Program-made: the position numbers and the translations under genes
The notes under the pieces: generated by a model
Seen by the model: only the letters and a program-made list of their open reading frames with translations
What the model was told of the DNA's origin: nothing
Databases searched by the model: none
In this document: piece by piece, positions 42,081 through 44,948 of the stretch
How the letters are laid out: every line of letters starts with the position of its first letter
How positions within the stretch are numbered: position 1 is the stretch's first letter
From: a virus
DNA: 52,305 nt
Reading direction: 5' to 3' (one strand)
Virus record (IMG/VR): IMGVR_UViG_3300007735_000752
Coordinates: 1 to 52,305 of that record

Positions 42081-42680
42081 ATGAATTTAATCCAAATTGG
42101 ATGTGCTGGTACAGCCATCAAAGATATAGAAACAAATCAAGTATCTAAATTATTTAAAGAAGAATCAAATCAAGTTATACATTTGATAGATGCTAATCCA
42201 TTTGCTCTTAAAGAATTTCAAAATAATTGCAAAATATTATCCTATTATAGTAAAATGAAATTTTATAATTTTGCGATTCTTCCTATTGATACTTATTTTC
42301 CAGTAAAATTCTTCTCTCCTAGAGATCCTTCAAAATCAGATTTTAGTTCTATTAACCCTAATCATGTTACAGCACACTTACATAATGCTGAGATCGATGC
42401 TCTAAATATAGATAGCATTTCATTAAATTCTTTTATTAGAACTTTTGTTAAAGGAGATATCAATCATCTTATTATAGATAGCGAAGGATTAGACGCACAG
42501 CTTCTATTTAGTTTAAATTTTGAACAGATAAAACCAAAAAATATAGTATTTGAGCATTTGCACACAGATGGAATTGCTCAAAGACACATCAGATTTGATT
42601 TAATTACAAAGTTACTAACGCATTACAAATATTCCATAAGAGAATGGGATGGGTATAGTTTAATTGCTACTTTAACTTGA
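42081..42680 (+). CDS. FkbM-like methyltransferase
   Basis: 199 aa from MNLIQIGCAGTAIKDIETNQ; an in-frame extension upstream would cover the promoter. The Rossmann glycine segment QIGCAG, the VIHLIDANPFALKEF strand/helix, HLIIDSEGLDAQLL and NIVFEH match the SAM-dependent FkbM methyltransferase layout (IDxEGxE). Acceptor unknown; FkbM enzymes often O-methylate sugars, which would fit the two glycosyltransferases. Its TGA lies in the next -35. Confidence 0.65.
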   Translation: MNLIQIGCAGTAIKDIETNQVSKLFKEESNQVIHLIDANPFALKEFQNNCKILSYYSKMKFYNFAILPIDTYFPVKFFSPRDPSKSDFSSINPNHVTAHLHNAEIDALNIDSISLNSFIRTFVKGDINHLIIDSEGLDAQLLFSLNFEQIKPKNIVFEHLHTDGIAQRHIRFDLITKLLTHYKYSIREWDGYSLIATLT

Positions 42681-42705
42681 CAAAATAAAGTATTTAGGTT
42701 ATTAT
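42677..42705 (+). promoter_or_regulatory. Promoter driving a structured leader
   Basis: TTGACA (42677-42682) including the upstream TGA, 17 nt, TATTAT (42700-42705). No ATG follows at the usual distance; transcription should start near 42712 in a GC-richer structured stretch. Confidence 0.7.
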
Positions 42706-42711
42706 AGAGTT

Positions 42712-42795
42712 ATCTTGGAAAGCCGTGACTCCCAAGGAAGCATAGGTTAGTGGTTATCCTAGCGGGTTCCTCCCGACCCGTAAAAACCATGCCTA
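42712..42795 (+). ncRNA. Structured, tRNA-like leader RNA
   Basis: The RNA would contain CTTGG...CCAAG pairing at its 5' end, then a D-arm-like GGTTAGTGGTTATCC, then a GC hairpin around CGGGTTCCTCCCG (42757-42769) that exposes TCC like a Gly anticodon, then GCAT/ATGC pairing closing the module. There is no T-arm, so it is at best a degenerate tRNA or a regulatory leader of the gene at 42803. Confidence 0.35.
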
Positions 42796-42802
42796 TTAAA
42801 TA

Positions 42803-43583: not shown

Positions 43584-44102
43584 ATGAGCAAAACATCTAA
43601 ATCAAAAAAAGTTAAAATGCCCAAGATGGATGACATCATGGCACAAATTAAAGCAGACCAATTAAAGAAAGCAGATAGAGTAAAGTATCATACTAATCTA
43701 TTATTCGATACTCTAGCACAAACAAAAGTTTCTTTTATTGAAGTATCTTTTGAAGGTTGTGGAGACTCTGGACAAATCGAAGCAGTAGATTATACAGACG
43801 CTAATGGCAAGGACATAGACGAATTATATCTTGACAAGGTTATTGTTAAAGGTTCAGCTAAAACATCCTATCACAAATGGGATGAAAAGAAAAAAGAGAT
43901 GGTTTTGACAGAAGCCAAAGAAGGAAATGTCAGAGAGATTATTGAAGAGGTATGCTATGATAAGTTAGGTGCAAGCCACGGAGGTTGGGAGATTAACGAA
44001 GGTAGCTATGGAACATTCTACTTTGATGTCTCTACTCGCAAGGTGCGTCTCGAATACAATGAGAGGATAGAGGAGGTTCGGACTAGTGAGGAGAGTTTCT
44101 AA
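43584..44102 (+). CDS. DUF6878-like protein
   Basis: 172 aa. VSFEGCGDSGQIEAV near residue 55 and GGWEINEGSYGTFYFDVSTR with VRLEYNERIEE resemble DUF6878 proteins of plasmids and phages, function unknown. Basic N terminus. G/C-richer codon use. Directly followed (1 nt overlap, TAATG) by the DUF6915-like gene. Confidence 0.65.
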   Translation: MSKTSKSKKVKMPKMDDIMAQIKADQLKKADRVKYHTNLLFDTLAQTKVSFIEVSFEGCGDSGQIEAVDYTDANGKDIDELYLDKVIVKGSAKTSYHKWDEKKKEMVLTEAKEGNVREIIEEVCYDKLGASHGGWEINEGSYGTFYFDVSTRKVRLEYNERIEEVRTSEESF

Positions 44103-44452
44103 TGGCTAATCCATATCACCATTCATTATCGTCAGCAAAGAAGTGGGGTGGTTCAGCAGAAGATTACCAGAAGATTCACGATTGGTTTGATGAGAGTAAG
44201 ATGATGATGGCAGACTTTCGCCATCGTGCCTTACGGCATCACGCCGAAGGTATCTTTATGTGTGAGAGAATATTTGGTAATACCATCACACTATCTAATG
44301 GCAAAAAGATTCCTACTAGATGGGTTGGAGAACAGCACATAGCAGAGGACTTGGGATTTATTCCATCTATGCAAGATTGGCTTAAACATATTATGCCAGA
44401 ACCTTGGATGGGCAAGACAAAGAAACTTGATGTGGAGTTAAATCCAGCATAA
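44102..44452 (+). CDS. DUF6915-like protein
   Basis: 116 aa. Matches the DUF6915 pattern: HHSLSSAKKWGGSAEDYQKI, HDWFDESKMMMADFRHRALR, HHAEGIFMCERIFG, GEQHIAEDLGFIPSMQDWLK. Several conserved His suggest metal binding. Function unknown. Same operon as the DUF6878-like gene. Confidence 0.7.
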   Translation: MANPYHHSLSSAKKWGGSAEDYQKIHDWFDESKMMMADFRHRALRHHAEGIFMCERIFGNTITLSNGKKIPTRWVGEQHIAEDLGFIPSMQDWLKHIMPEPWMGKTKKLDVELNPA

Positions 44453-44584
44453 ACTTTTGGTGAGGTGATGGTGGTCATCGGTGGTCACTCCGTTATAGTG
44501 AATCGTTTGCAAGTACCGAATAACTTGCACTGTTTTAAAAAAATTTGTTCTACAAAATATTGTATTTGATGTATAATATGATGT
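44453..44584. other. Intergenic region with small hairpins
   Basis: Contains a direct repeat of GGTGGTCA, a TCACT/AGTGA hairpin and a GCAAGT/ACTTGC hairpin (about 44508-44528), any of which may end transcription of the DUF6915 gene. TATAAT (44572-44577) lies 7 nt before the next start. Confidence 0.4.
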
Positions 44585-44719
44585 ATGAGCAAAAAACAAA
44601 TAGAGGAAAATCTTAACTATGGTGATAGCAATAATCTTTTCTGTTTTTTCAGTGATCTTTTTAAGAGCTTGGACGAGACAATAGAAAAAAGTATTGACGC
44701 AACCACAAAAAAGGTTTAA
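44585..44719 (+). CDS. Small protein, 44 aa, upstream of the ncRNA
   Basis: MSKKQIEENLNYGDSNNLFC, then FFSDLFKSLDETIEKS. TATAAT 7 nt before ATG suggests a leaderless start. The ncRNA promoter -35 lies in its last codons and the -10 starts at its TAA. Function unknown. Confidence 0.5.
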   Translation: MSKKQIEENLNYGDSNNLFCFFSDLFKSLDETIEKSIDATTKKV

Positions 44720-44722
44720 TAT
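44694..44722 (+). promoter_or_regulatory. Promoter of the structured ncRNA
   Basis: TTGACG (44694-44699), 17 nt, TAATAT (44717-44722). The expected start (about 44729) is 1 nt before the first base of the long closing stem and no start codon follows. Confidence 0.75.
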
Positions 44723-44728
44723 AAGAAC

Positions 44729-44890
44729 AGTAGAAGGCACACTCTCGGTTGCGAAAGGGTGCAAAGAAAGAGAGTGAGGCGCCGTATATCTCTTTCGTCC
44801 CTTCTACGTTGATTTCCGCACGAAATCAAGGATTGGCTGTTGAGGGTATTGCGGAATTAACCTCAACCATATATCCTTTGAGCGTTTTTT
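44729..44890 (+). ncRNA. Structured non-coding RNA of about 160 nt
   Basis: The 5' module is closed by GTAGAAGG (44730-44737) with CCTTCTAC (44800-44807) and contains ACTCTC/GAGAGT (44741-44746, 44770-44775) and TTGC/GCAA hairpins plus a GGCGCC palindrome. The 3' module has TTGATTTC/GAAATCAA (44809-44829), an enclosing AAGGAT/ATCCTT and GTTGAGG/CCTCAAC (44839-44867). TTCCGCA (44814-44820) is fully complementary to TGCGGAA (44850-44856), so the two loops can kiss or switch. A T6 run at 44885-44890 follows the last stem. No ORF of note; no known family recognised. Confidence 0.7.
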
Positions 44891-44948
44891 GGTGTCGCTG
44901 AAACCATATTTTTCTTTACTTAAATAAGAAATAGATTACTATAAATAG

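Follow-up and report, generated by a model that had tools for sequence, protein, structure and literature searches.

The RNA locus and its promoter

The window, that is, the whole stretch of 52,305 nucleotides that was analysed (positions 1 to 52,305 of IMG/VR record IMGVR_UViG_3300007735_000752), comes from an uncultivated phage, probably of freshwater origin to judge by contig names. It carries adjacent DUF6878 and DUF6915 genes (43584-44449), followed by a small open reading frame (ORF) and a predicted structured RNA, the parts of which are collected in Table 1. The RNA is present in a single copy in the window (the RNAs of type III toxin-antitoxin systems are tandem repeats beside an endoRNase toxin gene) and has a GC content of 0.44 vs. 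0.31 across the window. The small ORF (consensus MSKK.MEKNL.YGDC.N), which together with its own upstream region occupies 44548-44719 on the plus strand, is preceded by a strongly conserved promoter in which the palindrome TACAAAATATTGTA (44551-44564) may serve as an operator. An ORF of this kind lies upstream of the RNA in all 11 carriers of the window clade, with its stop codon in or near the -10 box; no viral contig was found to have it in the absence of the RNA, and it has no Pfam match.

In 11/11 relatives that include this stretch, the promoter of the RNA follows the pattern TTGAC-N17-TAATAT (TAAAAT in one case) and six bases separate it from the start of the RNA; its TTGAC is invariant despite lying within the small ORF. 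The closing stem of the RNA, P1, begins at the seventh base after the -10 box, or one base further, in all 11; in the window the first base is A44729, one base before P1. We place the 5' end there because many genes of the window show the same geometry: among 34 TTGAC-N15-18-TAnnnT sites (scanned with at least four of six matches in the -10 box), about 25 have an ATG 6-8 nt past the -10 box, mostly at exactly 6, and these genes are probably leaderless, with transcription predicted to start at the ATG itself. The same leaderless architecture also occurs in the RNA-bearing relatives and is missing from most other DUF6915 loci. Every sequence element named by the original prediction, which spanned 44694-44890, was present on direct reading, and its RNA locus holds; its boundaries do not, as the RNA is predicted to extend from 44729 to about 44918.

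Table 1. Predicted features of the RNA locus, with positions in the window
Feature	Position	Strand	Description
Small upstream ORF	44585..44719	+	44 aa long, 39-50 aa in the relatives; its stop codon falls within the -10 box of the RNA promoter
RNA promoter	44694..44722	+	TTGACG, 17-nt spacer, TAATAT
Structured RNA	44729..44918	+	predicted transcript of ~190 nt; start placed by comparison with the leaderless genes, end by sequence conservation plus the T-rich tail
5' domain	44730..44807	+	three-way junction P1-P2-P3, closed by P1: GTAGAAGG 44730-44737 / CCTTCTAC 44800-44807
P2 hairpin	44738..44761	+	44738-46/44753-61; loop ends UUGC; conserved internal purine mismatch
P3 hairpin	44766..44796	+	44766-73/44789-96; loop with GGCGCC in window clade
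PK1	44814..44856	+	TTCCGCA 44814-44820 with TGCGGAA 44850-44856
P4, internal loop and P5	44826..44881	+	P4 44826-33/44873-81 with a single bulge; almost invariant 5x5 loop; P5 44839-45/44861-67
PK2	44882..44906	+	GCG 44882-84/CGC 44896-98 interleaved with UGGU 44890-93/ACCA 44903-06; near-invariant
T-rich tail after PK2 stem	44907..44918	+	T-rich in 12/12 relatives; likely intrinsic terminator (predicted)

Homologues and covariation in the 5' domain

Relatives were collected by searching viral contigs with the upstream DUF6915 gene (44102-44449), which yielded 58 loci. A blastn comparison recognised the RNA at 13 of these loci, and an exact pattern added one more contig (L066), which makes 14 further phage contigs. 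The carrier phages encode ribonucleotide reductase (RNR) and clamp loader genes on contigs of up to 172 kb, all of which may be fragments, and look like large T4-type or jumbo phages. All copies of the RNA, in every lineage found, lie within ~1.7 kb of a DUF6915 gene wherever the sequence includes one, an association that may partly reflect ascertainment because the loci were gathered through this gene.

Within the 5' domain, changes on both sides of a pair with pairing kept were observed at 13 of 24 pairs, and 93.9% of cells pair. By helix, compensatory changes fall on five of the eight pairs of P1 (98% of cells paired), four of eight in P2 (A6 alignment), including C-G to G-C exchanges in L005, and six of eight in P3. 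The number of compensatory cells was reached by none of 500 shuffles, although such counts overstate independence since the aligned sequences are related; the covariation score was 0.34 vs. 0.15 in shuffles, and the signal was lost when the partner strand was slid by 1-3 columns. Further, RNAalifold, given the alignments as sole input, returned the same nested helices P1-P5. A coding explanation was rejected, as no reading frame stays open across the relatives, in agreement with the earlier statement that the transcript has no convincing ORF. The palindrome GGCGCC in the P3 loop, previously suggested to allow dimerisation, does not qualify as a general dimerisation site: only 6 of 15 aligned copies have it, the other copies carrying GATC, ATGTGCACAT or no palindrome.

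The 3' module and the predicted end of the transcript

The 3' domain gave a comparable picture, with both-side changes at 10 of 24 pairs and a covariation score of 0.32 vs. 0.14 in shuffles. P4 and P5 together have compensatory pairs at 9 of 15 positions (three of eight and six of seven, respectively), and the sequence of P5 varies across nearly all subgroups with its pairing mostly preserved. The 7-nt complementarity noted originally, PK1, is kept in 12/12 sequences with 6-8 bp counting G-U, and it shows a single compensatory switch (C-G to U-A), from TTCCGCA/TGCGGAA in the window to TTTCGCA/TGCGAAA in L002, L004 and L006; its length alone is moderately unlikely by chance (shuffle probability of 0.004 to 0.13 for Watson-Crick pairs). 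This one compensatory event underlies our assignment of PK1 as a predicted pseudoknot that joins the linker to the loop of P5. Hence, the complementarity that was first interpreted as two kissing hairpin loops is real, but the kiss between two hairpins is not; the first of these hairpins (44809-44830) was rejected since it shows no compensatory changes, is missing in 8 of 12 relatives and shares bases with P4. Because the 5-nt linker cannot span ~20 stacked pairs, PK1 can form only if the RNA bends at the conserved internal loop or a second molecule takes part; that is, by this geometric reasoning, PK1 probably folds P5 back on P4, or else pairs two molecules.

The highest conservation of the whole molecule is found further 3', in GAGCGUUUUUUGGUGUCGCnGAAACCA (44880-44906), which extends beyond the T6 (44885-44890) that had been taken as the terminator and is followed by a T-rich tail. 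This segment is predicted to form a second pseudoknot, PK2, mostly on the evidence of invariant bases, and its second stem is lengthened by matching bases in L002, L004 and L006 (GUUGGU with ACCAAC or ACCAAU). The T6 lies inside this motif and is interrupted by a G in the same three contigs, and the T-rich tail comes after it; therefore, we place the transcript end at about 44914-44918 rather than at the T6. Overall, the covariation and the constant spacing of the promoter support the original prediction of a structured noncoding RNA with its own promoter, and its two-module layout corresponds to the 5' three-way junction and the 3' module. Of the outcomes that would have refuted that prediction, neither a lack of covariation in homologues nor a match to a known family was observed. 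The fold is near certain to be real, its function is what we infer below, and the locus is very likely an RNA element, previously unlisted, that acts as RNA rather than as protein code.

Modular occurrence of the RNA in other phages

What the original prediction missed is that the 5' three-way junction is a transferable core, and that the 3' module is limited to one clade and enlarged in some of its members. The covariance model R1, built on the 3' module, found a single strong site in each carrier, with E-values of ~1e-25 to 1e-29, and nothing significant in the remaining DUF6915 loci, whereas a model of the 5' domain (R2) recovered the junction in L016, L031, L035 and L139, all lacking the 3' module. 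Adding these four copies to the model (R3) revealed two more, L048 (E 7e-13) and L030 (E 4e-9), both outside its training alignment; all E-values of the three models are rough, since model calibration was short. In a 15-row alignment with the four divergent copies added, compensatory pairs rose to 16 of 24 and the score to 0.53 vs. 0.21 in shuffles, figures that are biased in favour of the structure because the alignment was fitted to it.

In five of these six contigs the junction stands alone, with a T-run right after the closing stem (for instance, a T7 directly after P1 in L035), and L030, L031, L035 and L048 have, as read by eye, a weaker -10 box 17 bases after TTGAC, which again puts the start at P1. 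The sixth, L016, has the junction core in an operon, ahead of a Shine-Dalgarno-led gene and with no visible promoter. At the other extreme, L010-L015 have the 3' module and, in addition, an extra domain of ~190 nt between P1 and PK1. Since other phages have the junction but not the 3' module, we consider the junction the ancestral or transferable core of the element.

Searches beyond these contigs returned little. Two exact patterns of the 3' module had no match in bacterial and archaeal genomes; phage records gave no match by DNA similarity to the short or long form, and for the stand-alone cores no more than weak, partial ones; and loose patterns of the 3' module matched further viral contigs, none of which was confirmed by the covariance model. 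Cultured phages with a DUF6915 gene (Streptomyces phages Angela and GiJojo, Gordonia phage Bantam and Stenotrophomonas phage DLP6) showed no credible model match, in what was an insensitive look at whole records. No description of the motif was found in the open-access papers searched.

Comparison with known RNA families

At the Rfam 15 gathering threshold, only tRNAs were found in the window, and both the short and the long forms of the RNA stayed far below threshold even at E-values up to 10, so the earlier statement that the RNA matches no known family holds for these forms. It is neither a tRNA nor a tmRNA by ARAGORN or Rfam, and the GOLLD and ROOL models do not match it. GOLLD and ROOL are phage RNAs found near tRNA islands, of which the function is not known (PMC12286853). 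They are similar to the RNA described here in being phage-encoded, structured and near tRNA genes, with pseudoknots and kissing contacts, but they are several hundred nt long vs. ~190 (up to ~380) and have different helices; nor is a cage like theirs indicated for the present RNA, which is known here from sequence alone. Another likeness concerns the pRNA of phage phi29, a small phage RNA with its own ends closed, a three-way junction with two hairpins and possible loop-loop pairing, all of which our RNA shares. Identity with pRNA was rejected, however, given no Rfam match and neighbouring genes that are not phi29-like in carriers of T4-type or jumbo appearance.

Two further candidates were considered. 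The strings TTGCGG and CCGCA in the RNA resemble the P4 strands (P/Q elements) of group I introns, but their order is reversed, Rfam gives no intron match and the RNA is not within a gene. In Streptomyces phage Angela, the gene for an annotated Ro-like RNA-binding protein (L158, 1351-3003) lies among many tRNA genes, ~1 kb upstream of DUF6915, which prompted the idea of a Y RNA; a Ro/TROVE protein (PF05731) was found in 0 of 16 phage records, all possibly fragments.

Separately from the element under study, two other candidate structured RNAs were seen. One, at 42678-42800 on the plus strand of the window, has a promoter (TTGACA-N17-TATTAT) without an ATG at +7, a hairpin CTTGGAA..CCAAGG followed by UAGG-loop-CCUA, the GUGGU loop of which can pair with a downstream ACCAC; it is conserved in L002, L003, L005, L006, L008, L013 and L014 and has no Rfam match. 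The other (L005, 7294-7525, plus strand) is a different, GC-rich candidate with its own TTGACA promoter and a T6 end, seen in L005 only.

Proposed role and alternative explanations

On balance, we favor the hypothesis that the element is a stand-alone structured phage RNA gene, the product of which would act in trans as a protein-binding scaffold. A discrete structured RNA fits best because the start is constant, the ends are closed, each clade has a terminator-like 3' end and there is no constant downstream gene; both transcription and termination are predicted from sequence. Under this hypothesis, a strong sigma-70 type promoter would drive synthesis, its exact placement making transcription begin with P1 (or, in the window, with the base just ahead of it); the closed ends and the 3' pseudoknot would stabilise the RNA; a host or phage protein would bind the invariant bases of the junction and the P2 loop; and the scaffold may thereby alter host machinery to the advantage of the phage.

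Alternatively, the junction might be an aptamer or attenuator at the start of an mRNA, that is, a cis-acting 5' leader; termination would then be regulated at the T-run that follows P1 in the stand-alone copies and PK2 in the window clade. The observations that speak for such a leader also weigh against a role in trans: an ATG follows directly after the T-run in five copies (L030, L031, L035, L048 and L009), L035 has its T7 after P1, and the L016 core precedes a gene within an operon. The RNA also resembles riboswitch and attenuator leaders in its compact junction, invariant bases and adjoining T-run. It differs from them in having no consistent downstream gene and no Rfam riboswitch match even at an E-value of 10. 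A riboswitch would precede a constant class of genes without promoters of their own, while the features 3' of this RNA vary (genes with their own promoter, promoterless ORFs, a 39-aa ORF and several unrelated ORFs), form no functional set and differ even between close relatives. For instance, the gene that comes next carries a leaderless promoter of its own in the window, L002, L004 and L006; a tRNA-Asp begins 2 nt past the end of the RNA in L005 (6814-6887, plus strand), which suggests co-transcription; and L139 retains the element and its T8 tail, though it lacks the gene that comes next in its relatives. (tRNA genes lie within ~0.7 kb of the RNA in L005, L009, L010, L013, L014 and L015.) Hence, the RNA does not serve a single gene as its leader, and a leader, although a serious alternative given the five ATGs, is unlikely for the element as a whole; in the stand-alone group, the element may have a leader role.

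By analogy with phage HK022, whose put transcripts are structured RNAs, the element might instead be a cis antiterminator that, placed at +1, binds the transcribing RNA polymerase so that it passes later terminators. In two clades the element indeed begins precisely where transcription is predicted to start, and it is on the same strand as the genes behind it, the variability of which would be expected of a gene-independent signal. Yet a terminator-like end is kept in each clade, many neighbouring genes have their own promoters, for which antitermination would be unneeded, and L016 is not at a visible promoter; accordingly, we give this alternative little weight. Less weight still is due to a multimer-forming RNA, in which the PK1 strands or the P3-loop palindromes would pair between molecules to form dimers or rings, as the ornate RNAs of phages do. 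While the linker would not reach far enough for PK1 if P4-P5 were straight, and the P3 loop is self-complementary in most copies (one or another of the palindromes above), short palindromes are expected by chance, the P3 loop of L016 has none, and PK1 could form within one molecule if the RNA bent at the almost invariant internal loop. Finally, a chance structure or decayed coding sequence can be set aside: the fold energy of the corrected transcript (44729-44918) is indeed only at z -1.45, but the covariation counts refute this explanation, and the constant promoter spacing, the near-invariant 3' motif and the model matches in divergent phages speak against it. Fold energy alone proves nothing here, since the originally predicted span (44694-44890) beat all 200 dinucleotide shuffles in stability (z -3.2) and the corrected one does not stand out; the proof is comparative.

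In conclusion, we return to the trans-acting RNA as the preferred reading and suggest, more tentatively, that it represents an undescribed modular class of phage RNAs, occurring as the junction core alone (~75-85 nt), with the pseudoknotted 3' module (~190 nt) or enlarged by another inserted domain (~360-380 nt), that would act in trans on a conserved host target during infection. Phage structured RNAs with known jobs are few, and new classes for which promoter, start, fold and end are all predicted are rare. The precise predicted boundaries, a core of ~75-85 nt that can be synthesised, the linked small ORF and the variants that have gained or lost modules make the function of this RNA and its partner directly testable.
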